Below, one piece after another: positions 847-7,071 of a DNA stretch of 30,072 nt. Position 1 is the first letter of the stretch. Every line of letters starts with the position of its first letter. Source of the stretch: a virus; the IMG/VR virus record IMGVR_UViG_3300046675_000555, positions 1 to 30,072 of that record. The stretch is one strand, 5' to 3'. A program made the translations under genes and the position numbers. The notes beneath the pieces are model-generated. The model made no database searches and was not told the origin of the DNA. It worked only from the letters and a program-made list of their open reading frames with translations.

Positions 847-3800
847 ATGATAGCGGTCAGGACGGGATACTCGTTTAAGCTCGCCGTCGGTCACGTTAAG
901 TCGGTCGTCGATCGCCTCGTCGAGCTCGGCAAGACCGACGCCCCAATCGCCGACCGGGGCGGCACCTTCGGCTTCGTCTCGTGGACCAAGGCCTGCGCCA
1001 CCGCTAACCTGCGCCCCGTCTACGGCGTAGAGCTGGCGGTCAGCGACAACTGGGGGACCAAGTCCCGCAAGGAAGCCTCGCCGGAGCAACAGCCGCGCTT
1101 CGACTACTGGACCTTTCTGGCCAAGAGCGACCTCTCCGACCTCCACCAGCTGGTCAGGGCGGCGACTGGTAAGGCGGCCAAGGTCCCGGTACTCTCCTAT
1201 GACGAGGCGCTTGGAGCGCCGGGCGTGATCAAGGTCGCCAATGAGCAGGTCGATATCGACCTTGTCGACTTTGACATAGAGGACGTCTATATGGGCCTCA
1301 CCCCCGCCACTCCGCTGGGCCTGGTCAGGGCTGCCGCGCGCAGGGGCGCCCTGTTCGTCGCAGGTAGTCGCAACGTCTACCCCTGCAGCGGAGACCTCGA
1401 GTTCTATAGAGTCATGCTGGGGAGGCACTCGGCATCGACCCAGACCTATCCGCAGCACATCCTCTCCGACGACGAGCTCGCTGCCGCACTCGCCCCTGCG
1501 GCACTCGCCACAGATATCGCTAAAGCTATGGATCACTCCCGCGAGATAGTCTCCGGCTGTTGCGCCGTGCTCGAGAAGGGCGAGTTGCTCCACTTCAATG
1601 CCGAGAAGACCCTGCACCAGCTCTGCGAGGAGGGCGCGGCTCGGCTAGGCGTCGATCTATCCGTCCCGATGTATCGGGAAAGGATAGATCGAGAATTAGC
1701 CCTGATTGCCGAGAAGAAGTTCGACGACTACTTCCATATCATCTCCGACCTAGTGAACTGGGCCAAGCCCCGCATGGTCGTCGGACCGGCGCGGGGAAGC
1801 TCGTGCGGCAGCCTCGCCTGCTACCTGCTCGGTATCACTGCGATAGACCCCATTCCCCACGGCTTGATCTTTGAGAGGTTTATCGATATCACCCGCGCCG
1901 ACCTCCCCGATATCGACCTCGACTTCTCCAGACAGGACGAGGTGATGGCCTACGCGGAGCAGCGCTACGGCGAGAGGGTGGCCAGGCTGGCCAGCGTATC
2001 GATCTTCCAGTCCCGCTCTGCCCTGGCCAGGGTAGGGGCCGCCCTGAAGATACCCTCCTGGCAGGTGGAGAAGGTGGCGGAGACTGCGTTCAAGCGGATG
2101 ATGGGCGACTCCCGCAAGAGTAGTACGATCTTAGATACGCTCACAGATACCGATCCTGGCAGGGTGATGCTCAAGGAGTTTCCCCAGGCAGTCATCGCCG
2201 GCAGGTTCGAGGGTCACCCCGACCACTCCTCGATCCACGCCGCGGGCCTCGTCGTTACAGATAAGCCGGTCTCTACCTACGTTGCCGTAGACCGGAGGAA
2301 CGGCACTGCGATGTGCAACAAGTACGACGCAGAGTACCTCAACCTGCTCAAGATCGATGTCCTGGGTCTGACCCAGCTCTCGATCTTTGAGCGTACCCTC
2401 GAGCTGATCGGTGAGAGCCCCGTCTCCGGCTGGCTGGAGAAGATACCGCTCGACGATGCCAAGGCATTCGATCTACTCAATCGCCACAAGTACTGCGGCG
2501 TCTTCCAGTTTACCGGTGCCGCAATGCGCGGCCTGGCCAAGCAGATCACGTTCGAGTCGTTTGAAGACATCGTCGCCGCCACCGCCCTAGTCCGACCTGG
2601 CCCGCTCGCCTCCGGGGGGACCAGCCAGTGGGTGGAGAGAAGGGCGGGGCGCCAGGCAGTGACCTATCCACACCCACTGCTCGAAGAATTTTTGAGAGAC
2701 ACCTACGGGATACCGGTCTATCAAGAACAAATCCTTCGGATCGGTAGAGAGCTTGGCGATCTCTCGTGGGCGGACGTGACCCAGCTACGCAAGGCCATGA
2801 GCAGGTCCCTTGGTAAAGAGTATTTCGATCAGTATGGGGACAAGTGGAAGGAGACCGCGATCAAGAAGGGGATGCCGCCTGAGGTGGCGACAGAGTTTTG
2901 GGTAGCGATGTGTCTTGACGCGAATACTAAAATTAGATTGGCGAAGAGGAGTAAGCCGCTAACTATTAAACAACTATATCGGAAGTATGAGAGTCATCAG
3001 ACGTATGAGATTAAGCGGAAGGGCTCAAGGCCTTCCCTGGTCAGCCTGTTCCCAGACGGGAGGGGTCATACGCAGAAGGCGCTCAAGTTCATCAAGTCTG
3101 GAAGAAAGGTCTGCTGGAAATATATGTTTGAAGACAAGAGCCACGTCATATGTACCCCAGATCATCGCTTCATAGTTAATGGAGGGTGGCAGAAGATAGG
3201 AGAGGCAAAGATTGGAGACGACTTCGCATTCATGGGAGAAGACTATGAGAAGCGAGGATCGCGAGCTCGGAACCATACTGGAGGTGGTAAGGGGAGTGGG
3301 AAGCGGGATACTCTAGGCCGCTACTCTGGTACGGGTCGCGTCTCCTTTGCTAAAGATTTCCGTAGAGAGATGACAGGCAAGCCCTGTGCTGACTGCGGTA
3401 AGATTGCAACTCACATGGAGGTCCACCATAATGATTTCGTGGAAGGTAGAAAGAGACTGCGAGACGTAGCTTGGCTATGTCCTAGTTGTCATCGCACCAG
3501 GCACTGGCAGTTTGGTAGAGGGGCAACCCCTCCGTGGGGGGTAGGCAAGGCTGTTACATCAAAGAGACTAGTTAAGAGACAAAAGATCGGATTGAGAGAA
3601 GTCTATGACATCTCAATGGAAAAACATTTTAACTTTACTCTTCAAAATGGGTTGATAACTCATAATTGTCAATACGGAGCTTGGTGCCTGAGCGGCGATA
3701 CCGTATTAGTAGACCCTTATGGAAACCAGTCCCACAAGAAGCGGACCTTTACCCTGAGAGAACTCTACGAAAACGGGGGCTCATTCAATAGCCAGACCGG

Positions 3801-4962
3801 CAAGAAGCAGAACCTGCTGTGCCTCCAGGACGGGAGGATCAAGCCCCTCAGGTTGGTCGATGTCTACTATAGGGGCAGACAGAAGACCTGGCTGGTCAAG
3901 GTCGAGAGCGGAGAGAGCATTCGCGCCACCAAGGCCCACAGGTTTCTGGGCGTGGACGGCAAGTACTGGAGGCTCGATGACCTGCGACCAGGCGACGCGG
4001 TCATCTCGATAGGATGGAGTGCAGGCAGGACCGCAGTAGCCTCCAAGATCGTCTCTATCTCCGATCCCAAGATCGAGGACACCTACGATGTAGCCATGCC
4101 AGAGCCCTATAATAACTTCGTTGCCAATAACTTCGTAGTCCACAACTCCTTCAATAAGAGTCACAGCGTCGCCTATGCCTATGTCTCGTATTGGTGCGCG
4201 TACCTCAAGGCCCACTACCCTACGGAGTTCGCCGCCGCCACGCTCGATGCAGAGGAGAAGCCGGAGCGCCAGATCGAGCTGCTCCGCGAGCTAGCAGAGG
4301 AGGGCATCGGCTATATCCCGGTAGACCCGGAGAGGTCTACCGCCCGCTGGCAGGCCACCAGCGATGGCCGCCTGCTGGGTCCCTTGACCAACATCAAGAG
4401 CATTGGCCCCGCCAAGATGCTGCTGATCCTCCAGGCCCGCAGGGGAGAGCGCAAGCTAACCGCCTCGCAGGCCAAGCTGCTCGAGAACCCAAAGACTGCA
4501 ATCGATAGCCTGTTTCCGATCAGGGACCGCGTCCGCACTCTCTATCCAAACGGGCTTGGAGACGCGAACATCGCCAGTCTGCCAACTCCGGTGATCGCGT
4601 GCCAGCCTGGTATCCAGGGCCCGCAGGTCATTGTGGTGGTGATCAACCGCCTGATCCCCAAGGACGAGAACGAGCCGGTCAAGGTCGCCCGCAGGGGCGG
4701 GGTCCTCCTCGATGGTCCGATCCAGGCACTCAACATGTTCGTCAGGGATGACGGAGATGAGATGTTTGCCAAGATCGGTCGCTTCAAATTCAATGAGTTG
4801 GGCAAGCCCGTCCAGGAGGAGGGCAAGCCGGGCAAGGTGATCTACGCCTTAAAGGGGGTAGTCCCTCCGTCGTTCAGAATGCTCGATGTCCGGCAGGTCA
4901 GGAAGCTCGGATATATGGAGGAAGGCTATGATGACAATAGACCAAGCGGCGATCCTGATTAG
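847..4962 (+). CDS. dnaE: Phage DNA polymerase III alpha subunit (DnaE-like) with two inteins
   Basis: C-family replicative polymerase precursor of 1371 residues; removal of both inteins would leave 965. Order: a degenerate PHP-like N-terminus (about 1-190), where the expected H-x-H-x metal motif reads R-T-G-Y-S-F; the palm domain with G-P-A-R-G-S-S-C-G-S from G313; P-D-I-D-L-D-F with Asp355 and Asp357; and L-L-K-I-D-V-L-G-L with Asp504. These correspond to E. coli alpha Asp401, Asp403 and Asp555. Intein 1 is residues 689-940 and intein 2 is 947-1100. The C-extein resumes at S-F-N-K-S-H, followed by a helix-hairpin-helix (L-T-N-I-K-S-I-G-P-A-K) and a divergent C-terminal region. It is shorter than bacterial DnaE. 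It lies in an operon with the exonuclease. The start is an ATG four bases after the previous stop. Confidence 0.95.
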   Translation: MIAVRTGYSFKLAVGHVKSVVDRLVELGKTDAPIADRGGTFGFVSWTKACATANLRPVYGVELAVSDNWGTKSRKEASPEQQPRFDYWTFLAKSDLSDLHQLVRAATGKAAKVPVLSYDEALGAPGVIKVANEQVDIDLVDFDIEDVYMGLTPATPLGLVRAAARRGALFVAGSRNVYPCSGDLEFYRVMLGRHSASTQTYPQHILSDDELAAALAPAALATDIAKAMDHSREIVSGCCAVLEKGELLHFNAEKTLHQLCEEGAARLGVDLSVPMYRERIDRELALIAEKKFDDYFHIISDLVNWAKPRMVVGPARGSSCGSLACYLLGITAIDPIPHGLIFERFIDITRADLPDIDLDFSRQDEVMAYAEQRYGERVARLASVSIFQSRSALARVGAALKIPSWQVEKVAETAFKRMMGDSRKSSTILDTLTDTDPGRVMLKEFPQAVIAGRFEGHPDHSSIHAAGLVVTDKPVSTYVAVDRRNGTAMCNKYDAEYLNLLKIDVLGLTQLSIFERTLELIGESPVSGWLEKIPLDDAKAFDLLNRHKYCGVFQFTGAAMRGLAKQITFESFEDIVAATALVRPGPLASGGTSQWVERRAGRQAVTYPHPLLEEFLRDTYGIPVYQEQILRIGRELGDLSWADVTQLRKAMSRSLGKEYFDQYGDKWKETAIKKGMPPEVATEFWVAMCLDANTKIRLAKRSKPLTIKQLYRKYESHQTYEIKRKGSRPSLVSLFPDGRGHTQKALKFIKSGRKVCWKYMFEDKSHVICTPDHRFIVNGGWQKIGEAKIGDDFAFMGEDYEKRGSRARNHTGGGKGSGKRDTLGRYSGTGRVSFAKDFRREMTGKPCADCGKIATHMEVHHNDFVEGRKRLRDVAWLCPSCHRTRHWQFGRGATPPWGVGKAVTSKRLVKRQKIGLREVYDISMEKHFNFTLQNGLITHNCQYGAWCLSGDTVLVDPYGNQSHKKRTFTLRELYENGGSFNSQTGKKQNLLCLQDGRIKPLRLVDVYYRGRQKTWLVKVESGESIRATKAHRFLGVDGKYWRLDDLRPGDAVISIGWSAGRTAVASKIVSISDPKIEDTYDVAMPEPYNNFVANNFVVHNSFNKSHSVAYAYVSYWCAYLKAHYPTEFAAATLDAEEKPERQIELLRELAEEGIGYIPVDPERSTARWQATSDGRLLGPLTNIKSIGPAKMLLILQARRGERKLTASQAKLLENPKTAIDSLFPIRDRVRTLYPNGLGDANIASLPTPVIACQPGIQGPQVIVVVINRLIPKDENEPVKVARRGGVLLDGPIQALNMFVRDDGDEMFAKIGRFKFNELGKPVQEEGKPGKVIYALKGVVPPSFRMLDVRQVRKLGYMEEGYDDNRPSGDPD
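2911..3666 (+). mobile_element. Intein 1 in DnaE, with HNH homing endonuclease domain (252 aa)
   Basis: A protein-splicing element in frame, precursor residues 689-940. Block A begins with Cys689 (CLDANTKIRL). Block B carries T-P-D-H (VICTPDHRFIV). Block F is VYDISMEKHFNF and block G is NGLITHN, ending with His939-Asn940 and followed by Cys941 as the +1 residue. All residues needed for class 1 splicing are present. Between blocks B and F is an HNH nuclease: C847-x2-C850, V-H-H-N (859-862) and C878-x2-C-H...H886. The DNA is visibly AT-richer than the flanking polymerase: 25 of 60 G+C in 2941-3000 against 39 of 60 in 1921-1980. That suggests recent arrival and a still mobile element. Confidence 0.92.
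3685..4146 (+). other. Intein 2 in DnaE, endonuclease-free mini-intein (154 aa)
   Basis: A second in-frame intein, residues 947-1100, starting only six extein residues (C-Q-Y-G-A-W) after intein 1 ends. Block A is CLSGDTVLVD, block B SIRATKAHRFLGVDG, block F TYDVAMPEPYNNF and block G ANNFVVHN, with terminal His1099-Asn1100 and Ser1101 as +1 residue. No endonuclease domain is seen. The insertion point, immediately before S-F-N-K-S-H, is the position used by the cyanobacterial split DnaE inteins, which sit before C-F-N-K-S-H. Block B also resembles theirs (I-R-A-T-K-x-H-x-F-x-x-V-D-G). Its base composition is close to the polymerase, so it looks older than intein 1. Confidence 0.9.
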
Positions 4963-5107: not shown

Positions 5108-5496
5108 GCGACGGAGATCTGAGGAAGATATTTCGCAACCACCTGCCTATGGTGGCCTGGAGTACGATAGAGACTGGCGCGGTCGAGCCCGGCGTCGCCG
5201 ATCTCAACGGCCTGCTTAACGGTGTTGAGTTCTGGGTAGAGAACAAGCGCACGCTTGCCTATGCCGTAGAGGTCAAGCCGAGCCAGGTCGCCTGGCACCG
5301 GCTGCGGTGGGCCAAGAGGGGGAGGACCTTCTTTGCGGTACGCCGCTGCGGCAGCGAGCTCTGGCTAATCGAGGGCCGCCACGCGCTCCAGCTCAAGGAC
5401 TACGGTCTGCGGGACTGCCCCACCCTCCTGGTGGCCGACGGAGGTCCGGCCCGCTGGCCATGGGCCAGGGTTCTAGACCTCCTAGTGGGGCACTAG
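5104..5496 (+). CDS. PD-(D/E)XK superfamily nuclease-like protein (VRR-NUC type)
   Basis: 130 residues with the core of a restriction-endonuclease-fold nuclease: G-V-A-D-L-N (Asp33), then W-V-E-N-K (Glu46, Lys48), with a possible second pair V-E-V-K, and Gln61 in P-S-Q-V-A-W ahead of a basic helix. The pattern G-x-x-D...E-x-K...Q-x-x-W is typical of VRR-NUC and phage Holliday-junction-type nucleases, which cut branched or flap DNA during replication and recombination. The GTG start overlaps the previous stop (GTGA). It is the last gene of the replication operon and is followed by a 704-base non-coding region. The superfamily is likely; the substrate cannot be read from sequence. Confidence 0.75.
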   Translation: MSDGDLRKIFRNHLPMVAWSTIETGAVEPGVADLNGLLNGVEFWVENKRTLAYAVEVKPSQVAWHRLRWAKRGRTFFAVRRCGSELWLIEGRHALQLKDYGLRDCPTLLVADGGPARWPWARVLDLLVGH

Positions 5497-5613
5497 GAGG
5501 GCCCATGTGCAGCGGTTAGACCGTGGGGTACCCCCTCCAGGAGGGCCTACCAGCGGCCTTTTCTATCGTATTGGAGGCCTAGAAAATTGAGTAAAATCAA
5601 GCCCCCTAGGCCC

Positions 5614-5642
5614 TTTACATTTCTTCCTTCTTTCTTTATATA
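5614..5642 (+). promoter_or_regulatory. sigma70-like promoter with pyrimidine-only spacer
   Basis: TTTACA (5614-5619) and TATATA (5637-5642) are separated by exactly 17 bases. They match TTGACA at 5 of 6 positions and the TATA part of TATAAT. The spacer consists only of T and C. This AT-rich island stands out in a GC-rich intergenic region and points toward the gene block starting at 6201, which would give it a leader of about 550 bases. Start-site mapping would be needed to confirm it. Confidence 0.5.
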
Positions 5643-5896
5643 TAGGAGGCCTTCTAGGGCATGCGGGGAGCTTCCACCCTCCCTCCCCCTAGGAAGTGGT
5701 TCGACAAAGTGGTCGGCCCCTGAGGACCTCTCGAGTGCCCTAGCGGCCTTGACCCTCCCCCGGTTGGGGCGGGACTGTAGAGAGGGAGCACGGGGAACCT
5801 CCTTAGGACCTCTCCCCCACTAGAGCGATAAGCTGCACGAGGGGAGAGGGCCTGGTTTAGGGCGAACCTCCTGCCGGCATCTACGAAAAGCCGAAG

Positions 5897-5989: not shown

Positions 5990-6148
5990 CTCCTCTCGCA
6001 AAAGCGGAGGAGCAGTGCCGTCGGCAAACGACGGAGCGCAAGCGCAAGCAGAAAATGCGACAAGAGCGGGGAGGTTGGATCGACTGCGACGGGCCGCCCG
6101 CCACCGCGCGGCCCAGAAAGTGAAATGCGGCCTCGGCCGCATCGAGGC
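5990..6148 (+). other. cluster of leader hairpins
   Basis: Three stem-loops follow one another. At 5990-6012, CTCCTCTCGC pairs with GCGGAGGAG around AAAA with one bulge. At 6018-6034, CCGTCG pairs with CGACGG. At 6130-6148, GCCTCG pairs with CGAGGC. Together with the 15-bp repeat upstream and the leader repeat downstream, they make a continuous structured leader ahead of the gene at 6201. Confidence 0.45.
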
Positions 6149-6149
6149 G

Positions 6150-6179
6150 GGATGACCTCCGCCTCCTGAAGATCAGGTC
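6150..6179 (+). repeat. leader repeat copy 1 with CCTGA-AGA-TCAGG hairpin
   Basis: A 30-base block beginning GGATGACCTCC and ending GATCAGGTC. It matches 6511-6540 at 26 of 30 positions. Both copies keep a five-base-pair hairpin (CCTGA, three-base loop ending GA, TCAGG). It lies 21 bases before the start codon at 6201, so it is likely a shared post-transcriptional control or protein-binding element. Confidence 0.6.
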
Positions 6180-6200
6180 CAACACAAAGGAAAGACCAAG

Positions 6201-6470
6201 ATGACCACCGCAACCACTCTCGACCTCCTCGCCCGCCCGAACACCTACAAGCACTTTGTTGCAGCGGCCCTGCTCAAGAGCAAGGGTAAGACACTCACCT
6301 TCGACCAGCTCTCCAAGGCGGCCTACGGCGAGGTTAAGGACGAGTACAAGGCCCCGATTGCTATGATCCTGGTTGGGATCAAGGTCGCGATCAAGGCGAA
6401 CAAGCTCCCGCTCCAAGTCGTGCGAGAGAAGGGCACCGTGAAGATCGCACCCAAGGGTCGCAGTCGATAA
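6201..6470 (+). CDS. small winged-helix-like protein, 89 aa
   Basis: First gene after the structured leader; the start follows AAGGAAAGACCAAG. The translation aligns by eye with the C-terminus of the protein ending at 16238: both have an L-L or A-L helix, then K-A-x-Y-G, then a stretch ending V-A-I-x-x-x-K-L-P, then a beta segment, and both end in a Ser/Gly/Arg tail. The layout (three helices, then a two-strand wing) resembles a winged-helix DNA-binding domain like that of response regulators. It is probably a small phage DNA-binding regulator; the target is unknown. Confidence 0.65.
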   Translation: MTTATTLDLLARPNTYKHFVAAALLKSKGKTLTFDQLSKAAYGEVKDEYKAPIAMILVGIKVAIKANKLPLQVVREKGTVKIAPKGRSR

Positions 6471-6483
6471 GGCCTAGTGAAAT

Positions 6484-6501
6484 TCGGAGGAGACCCTCCG
6501 A
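6484..6501 (+). other. hairpin downstream of the 6201 gene
   Basis: TCGGAGG (6484-6490) pairs perfectly with CCTCCGA (6495-6501) over a four-base loop. It lacks a following T-run, so it is more likely a processing site or pausing hairpin at the start of the next leader than a terminator. Confidence 0.45.
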
Positions 6502-6510
6502 GTTGTGCAG

Positions 6511-6540
6511 GGATGACCTCCTGCGCCTGACGATCAGGTC
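6511..6540 (+). repeat. leader repeat copy 2 with CCTGA-CGA-TCAGG hairpin
   Basis: Second copy of the 30-base element, 26 of 30 identical to 6150-6179. The four differences leave the five-base-pair stem intact and alter one loop base. It lies 30 bases before the start at 6571. Conservation of the stem, not just the sequence, argues for function. Confidence 0.6.
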
Positions 6541-6551
6541 TCTCCACCCAT

Positions 6552-6566
6552 AAGCAAGAAAGCGAA
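6552..6566 (+). promoter_or_regulatory. purine-rich leader/RBS module (variant copy)
   Basis: AAGCAAGAAAGCGAA, a slightly diverged copy of the AAGCAAGAAAGGAA module found before several genes here. It ends four bases before the ATG at 6571 and supplies the ribosome-binding purines. Confidence 0.5.
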
Positions 6567-6570
6567 AGCG

Positions 6571-7071
6571 ATGCCTACCGACAACGTGTGGACCCGCCAC
6601 CTCCACAAGCCCAAGACGGCGAGCAAGATCAAGAGGACCGCTACCTCCCCGCTCTATCAGTCCCTCCGCAGTGAGAGCTACAGGCTGGGCGAGCGCAATG
6701 ACTGCTCCGTCGTTGCAGTCGCCGCAGTCTGCGGGGTCTCCTATGCGGATGCCCACGCGGCCCTGGCCAAGAGAGGGCGCAAGCACAAGCGCGGCGTCTA
6801 TAACTCAATCATCATCGATGCGGTCTTAGGCTTCTCTAAGACCCTAGAGCGGATCGACCCCAAGTCGATCATCAGCAGCTACCCCGGCATCCATAAGACA
6901 CTCCAGAACGTAACCACCCATCACCCCCGCCGCTTCCCCGGCTCGTTCAATCCGTCCAAGTGCTACCTCTTGTTCATCAAAGGCCACGTGCTCGCAGTCA
7001 TGGGCGGCGAGGTCAACGACTGGACGATCAACAAGGCCAAGCGTGTGATCGCCATCTACGAAGTTAAGTGA
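6571..7071 (+). CDS. C39/papain-like fold putative cysteine peptidase, 166 aa
   Basis: The N-terminal catalytic region reads E-R-N-D-C-S-V-V-A-V-A-A with Cys45 at the start of a hydrophobic helix. A later strand-turn reads K-G-H-V-L-A-V-M with His139, followed by V-N-D-W with Asp150. This Cys...His...Asp spacing and the N-D-C-x-V-x-A-x-A-A signature match small phage proteins with the C39/papain-like peptidase fold. It could process a phage or host protein or be a non-catalytic relative. A basic tail (about 1-35) precedes the domain. The fold assignment is moderately secure; activity is inference. Confidence 0.6.
   Translation: MPTDNVWTRHLHKPKTASKIKRTATSPLYQSLRSESYRLGERNDCSVVAVAAVCGVSYADAHAALAKRGRKHKRGVYNSIIIDAVLGFSKTLERIDPKSIISSYPGIHKTLQNVTTHHPRRFPGSFNPSKCYLLFIKGHVLAVMGGEVNDWTINKAKRVIAIYEVK

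Follow-up and report, generated by a model that had tools for sequence, protein, structure and literature searches.

Whether a single phage DNA polymerase can accommodate two inteins with next to nothing between them, where two such neighbors would have come from and whether both leave the protein are the questions raised by the window analyzed here, the whole 30,072-base stretch of an IMG/VR virus record. The window carries phage genes, with PHROGs matches in 5 of the 10 window proteins scanned, including a helicase, an endolysin-like protein and a baseplate-wedge protein. Its plus-strand reading frame at positions 847-4962 encodes a DnaE-type polymerase of 1371 residues, identified by Pfam matches to DNA_pol3_alpha (9.6e-56) and to the finger domain (2.8e-39; residues 511-674), just downstream of which the intein pair is placed. 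A PHP match at the start of the N-extein is weak and falls under the Pfam cut-off, and the N-extein contains PDIDLDF, a catalytic motif.

Family models identify both inteins on this one protein: Pfam Intein_splicing (4.6e-19) and NCBIfam intein_Nterm (1.2e-12) and intein_Cterm (2e-6) each match two stretches, all exceeding their curated cut-offs, and a PRK07373 match (residues 1067-1204 to its positions 3-140) spans the end of intein 2. Two relatives of this polymerase, L006 and L007, are 72% (669 of 932 aligned residues) and 70% (662 of 939) identical to the joined extein and read DDMCQFGAWAFNKAHS (FWDDM-CQFGAW-AFNKAHS), with both insertion sites unoccupied. Because these natural empty alleles show the uninterrupted junctions, they fix the boundaries of both inteins (Table 1). 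The first-pass annotation had placed two inteins at residues 689-940 and 947-1100, with C-Q-Y-G-A-W as the only extein between them and a normal phage DnaE segment as the product of joining; the boundaries proved right to the base, and the remainder is borne out by the family matches, the Pfam matches to DnaE and the empty relatives, in which the spacer reads CQFGAW.

Table 1. Positions of the DnaE exteins, the two inteins and their motifs in the window.
Feature	Position	Strand	Basis or remark
DnaE N-extein, residues 1-688	847..2910	+	ends ...FWVAM; polymerase domain with PDIDLDF; L006 aligned to E. coli DnaE
Intein 1, residues 689-940 (252 residues), HNH-motif intein of class 1 type at site A (VAM^C)	2911..3666	+	family matches, motifs, boundaries by script
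Intein 1 block B, TPDH	3154..3165	+	motif
Intein 1 HNH/zinc motif, CxxC...EVHHND...CxxCHRTRH	3385..3504	+	comparison with four site-C relatives
Six-residue extein spacer CQYGAW, residues 941-946	3667..3684	+	CQFGAW in empty relatives
Intein 2, residues 947-1100 (154 residues), mini-intein of class 1 type at site B (GAW^SFNK)	3685..4146	+	family matches, motifs, model
Intein 2 block B, TKAH	3928..3939	+	motif
DnaE C-extein, residues 1101-1371	4147..4959	+	starts SFNKSHS
Site C (FNK^SH), empty in this DnaE	4158..4159	+	holds inteins of the intein 1 family in other viral contigs

Intein 1 has Cys689 as Cys1, TPDH in block B, YD in block F and a THN end followed by Cys941 as the +1 residue, and intein 2 has Cys947 as Cys1, TKAH in block B, YD in block F and a VHN end followed by Ser1101. 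The claim that all blocks are present in both inteins therefore stands for blocks A, B and G, which are canonical, for the His-Asn ends, for the +1 nucleophiles and for the YD of block F, but it does not hold for the usual HN[F/Y] of that block, which reads FNF in intein 1, where 4 of 4 relatives at site C have HN, and NNF in intein 2. The block F His is common but not universal among class 1 inteins, so that it is not strictly defining.

Structural comparisons relate both elements to known splicing domains. The best solved relatives of intein 1 by sequence are DnaE inteins, including 4kl6 (presumably the Npu DnaE intein) and 1zd7 (named Synechocystis dnaE), and those of intein 2 are DnaB inteins. 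Modeled alone with AlphaFold2, intein 2 is predicted to adopt the HINT fold (pLDDT 90.1), with its best match to the Ssp DnaB mini-intein (E 1.2e-11) and a target-normalized TM of 0.91 to a RecA intein splicing domain. A model of the double segment (437 residues; mean pLDDT 64.7, pTM 0.45) contains two runs of intein-like beta strands and gives no mutual placement of the two intein domains; the 50 PDB matches listed for it, in a search spanning both domains jointly, are inteins or their relatives (hedgehog, BIL).

An endonuclease region is present only in intein 1 of the pair. Its HNH region keeps 16 of the 20 residues invariant in four site-C relatives, with all Cys, His, Glu and Asp residues among those kept, compared with 48 of 61 such positions over the whole intein, and the Pfam HNH model matches with an E of 0.055, under its cut-off. 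Intein 1, the relatives of which reside in DnaE at FNK^SH, is probably mobile and equipped with an HNH endonuclease.

We consider it likely, with a probability of roughly 85%, that this DnaE carries two independently acquired class 1 inteins, six residues apart, and that both excise. In each intein, an acyl shift at Cys1 would be followed by transfer to Cys941 or Ser1101 and by cyclization of the terminal Asn, and excision in either order would yield VAM-CQYGAW-SFNKSHS. Failure at the inner junctions would free the hexapeptide and leave two dead fragments; coordination between the inteins could therefore matter. Speaking against this reading are the absence of the usual block F His from both inteins and the deviation of intein 1 at 13 of the 61 positions invariant among its four relatives.

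The first of these points would also suit the alternative that one intein splices poorly and that the gene is no longer functional or has given way to another polymerase, which could be encoded elsewhere in the virus, as the record is a 30-kb fragment. We regard this as improbable, though the least so of the rival explanations, given that each intein retains Cys1, TxxH, a His-Asn end and its +1 nucleophile and that the frame remains open over all 1371 codons with PDIDLDF in place.

The distribution of occupied and empty sites bears on how the pair might function. Among 64 viral DnaE loci surveyed, 48 are readable and empty, 4 belong to this virus (sites A and B occupied), 7 form the L012 group (site C), 1 (L064) is occupied at site A, and 4 (L068, L077, L100 and L102) end before the region. 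The first-pass annotation had proposed a search for other DnaE proteins with both sites occupied, and in these loci none came to light outside this virus. Likewise, a pattern scan for site B occupancy returned four stretches in viral contigs, every one of them from this virus, and none in genome contigs, the pattern being one that the His-less cyanobacterial split inteins cannot fit; an analogous scan for alleles occupied at site A only, with a pattern that demands an HN end and FNK and that L064, truncated where its contig stops, was unable to fit, returned no matches in viral contigs. No allele of this lineage was found to carry just one of the two inteins. A residue usable as a +1 nucleophile occurs at site A in 17 of the 30 distinct empty sites, at site B in 5 and at site C in 23, and at A and B together in only 3, so that the double state would need either an unusual host allele or an intein bringing its own +1 Ser.

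The first-pass annotation proposed that the two intein domains could hinder or assist each other and that splicing order could regulate the polymerase, which would make the pair a regulatory switch. Conditional splicing has been described for other inteins in the available text of published work (e.g. PMC6195587, PMC7360933), and yet the pairing is not conserved, the double state occurring, within the survey, in this virus only (4 of the 64 loci, representing one sequence), so that we hold a switch to be a shade less probable than a dead gene. A further alternative is that the N half of intein 1 acts with the C half of intein 2 to remove 412 residues, spacer included, giving a shortened alternative polymerase. 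The order of the parts permits such skipping in principle, and it has no other support; the two families are distant (23-24% identity), and the product would lack a conserved stretch, one that has the same length in all 48 readable empty alleles, which makes skipping decidedly unlikely. The same conservation of spacer length makes it a fair inference that both inteins must splice for the polymerase to work, as had been claimed.

To place the two inteins among their relatives, we compared them with those found in other viral contigs. Relatives of intein 1 were found by tblastn in 10 other viral contigs from four DnaE lineages (L012-L018, L019, L030 and L040), with L020 and L031 left out since only their HNH part matches. 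All 10 lie at site C, FNK^SH or its equivalent, ten extein residues past site A; intein 1 is 37-45% identical to the members of this family (37-42% in the best tblastn segment), and within L012-L018 (7 contigs) the intein DNA differs from that of L012 by at most one base. The nearest relative of intein 2 is the intein of L064 (positions 5303-5885), at 41-43% identity (41% along a 108-residue stretch, with an E of 3e-21 among the fetched loci). This intein has an HNH motif and starts at site A (WDDL^C), and its contig ends before the downstream junction. In a tree of eight rows, in which support inside family 1 is modest, intein 2 pairs with L064 (97/94), and intein 1 joins the site-C family (97/97), where it lies nearest to L012 (84/83).

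Duplication of one intein, copied in tandem six residues along, has in its favor that both inteins sit in the same gene and are weakly similar (10 of 44 and 26 of 115 identities, or 23-24%). Each intein is nonetheless closer to its own outside kin than to the other, and an AU test rejects inteins 1 and 2 as sisters (p 3.4e-9, under the model used), so that the tree and this test together rule duplication out for practical purposes. An assembly artefact merging two alleles, a thought invited by the metagenomic origin of the contigs, is the least credible explanation of all, considering that the boundaries are exact and in frame and that the identical arrangement recurs in 4 of 4 other IMG/VR contigs with differing metagenome numbers, none of which shows a mismatch in the overlapping part (for L005, 3539 of 4113 bases).

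The frame reported in the first-pass annotation is open, free of internal stops and reproduced, as far as they overlap it, in each of these contigs. Every fetched locus of the double-intein gene is 100% identical to the window over its overlap, and the five identical contigs may represent one population, for which reason they were counted as one allele.

Each family occurs at more than one site, and both appear to have changed their insertion site. With the kin of intein 1 at site C and the nearest kin of intein 2 at site A, the shift seems to have run from C to A in family 1 and to have taken place between A and B in family 2. In the numbering of E. coli DnaE (2hnh), counted from the alignment of L006, the positions found correspond to V748^E749 (A), Y754^G755 (B), F756^N757 (occupied in Gordonia phage Wojtek, described below) and K758^S759 (C); about ten residues around FNKSHS therefore hold at least four intein insertion points. 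Presence is sporadic in both settings: the near relatives L006 and L007 are empty for intein 1, and at site C L098 holds an HNH intein of family 1 where L056 is empty. The latter two are distinguished by an exact in-frame insert of 792 bp, bordered by sequence that is 99.0% and 96.9% identical, and by silent changes in the two codons preceding the insert. This pattern is what would be expected of homing with co-conversion, without amounting to proof of it, and, at the level of sequence, it shows family 1 to have been recently mobile.

Annotated phages gave no match for intein 2, plasmids matched neither intein 2 nor the N part of intein 1, and in genome contigs 53 stretches fit the pattern of the intein 1 family, of which none was confirmed, in a pattern scan that diverged members may escape.

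Base composition was also compared between inteins and exteins. The GC content of intein 1 is 0.479, a value as low as which is reached by only 0.07% of sliding windows of equal length, and the five lowest-GC sliding windows all begin within 20 bases of intein 1. Its GC3 is 0.49 against 0.79 for the pooled exteins (p 2.8e-20), and that of intein 2 is 0.75 (p 0.42 against the exteins). All 7 of the HNH-bearing inteins compared, intein 1 among them, are however lower in GC than the N-extein before them, L019 by a small margin, and because the 6 of 6 others share the property, low GC is no clean sign of late arrival, a reading of the GC3 value that we accordingly downgraded. What the GC pattern hints at is a settled intein 2 more than a recent intein 1.

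The mini-intein of the pair, having no endonuclease, could spread only along with its neighbor or with the gene. Because only 18 bp separate the two inteins, it is very likely that a repair tract begun at site A would include them both. In the available text of PMC10643990, a mini-intein beside an endonuclease-bearing intein must depend on co-homing if it homes at all, and for Haloferax double inteins, both endonuclease-bearing, the same text reports no evidence of co-homing and finds double homing inefficient. We infer that an 18-bp spacing is the most favorable case for co-homing. A more speculative extension, to which we give rather less than even odds, is that HNH inteins shift among sites A, B, F^N and C of this DnaE stretch, that the present pair is a composite element, an HNH intein with a passenger mini-intein 18 bp off, carried together in one repair event, and that the passenger splits the target for cutting by other HNH inteins of the family.

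Several known systems resemble the pair in part. The two neighboring inteins MCM-a and MCM-d of Haloferax mediterranei likewise occupy one replication gene, with their homing interplay measured, and differ, according to the portion of the report available (PMC10643990), in that both carry LAGLIDADG endonucleases, whereas the present pair combines one HNH intein with one mini-intein in a phage polymerase. Two inteins per replication protein are also found in Pyrococcus abyssi CDC21 and in Thermococcus kodakarensis DNA polymerase, with spacers of 48 and 85 residues in the available text of PMC8966425 compared to 6 here. Within the portions of the literature available to us, no natural inteins closer than 48 residues were found, the spacing of the Trichodesmium DnaE inteins lying outside this comparison.

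Intein 2 shares its place in DnaE with the split DnaE inteins of cyanobacteria (Ssp, Npu): the wild-type Ssp junction is given as beginning CFNK in the consulted part of PMC2664965, compared to SFNK here, and the PRK07373 match agrees with this position. Unlike those, inteins 1 and 2 are unsplit, within one 1371-residue frame, and the best solved kin of intein 2 are from DnaB; furthermore, both end in His-Asn, whereas cyanobacterial DnaE inteins carry Ser or Ala instead of that His, as described in the available section of PMC5874633. The two intein families, the HNH motif in one of them and a multi-position landing spot that other phages also use and that is shared with the cyanobacterial split DnaE intein are observations that go beyond the first-pass annotation.

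Closer in host type is Gordonia phage Wojtek (OL455890; L025, positions 3938-4735), which has an HNH-motif intein in a phage DnaE two residues past site B. It differs from the present pair in lying between F and N (SF^N) with Asn as the +1 residue, and in that one intein is seen in the translation. The Wojtek intein groups with intein 2 and L064 (97/97) on a long branch of unsure place, and the corresponding empty allele is found in phage LuckyLeo (SFNIAHC; 95.3% identical in the matched pieces). Canonical splicing requires Cys, Ser or Thr at +1, and because its +1 residue is Asn, the Wojtek intein may splice oddly or not at all. The mycobacteriophage TerL inteins similarly provide several insertion points in one phage gene, with five in TerL1 in the part of PMC5050341 available; they differ in residing in the TerL ATPase domain, and the main text of that report contains no mention of DnaE or polymerase III.

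A natural middle extein of six residues would be an extreme test of the side-by-side folding and action of splicing domains, and the pair offers a ready model for whether neighboring inteins interfere with, help or cross-splice one another. Protein engineers may gain from it two divergent inteins that function in the same chain. Because natural alleles with and without an intein exist at several positions in a ten-residue stretch, target-site switching can be tested directly on such pairs, of which occupied L098 and empty L056 are suited to a homing test.

Two minor observations concern other interrupted genes. In L099, DnaE is interrupted at about positions 6011-6881, near reference residue 338, by some 870 nt in which each of the three forward frames has stops and across which the frame changes; the DnaE match resumes in a second piece, starting at reference residue 289, as would suit an intron-like element or an assembly fault, and a comparison of the insert with Rfam gave no match. 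Finally, mycobacteriophage genes annotated as ThyX or HNH endonuclease (H84-H87 and H90-H100, among the best 20 of 30 records) are 24-26% identical to the L030 intein and look like related inteins.
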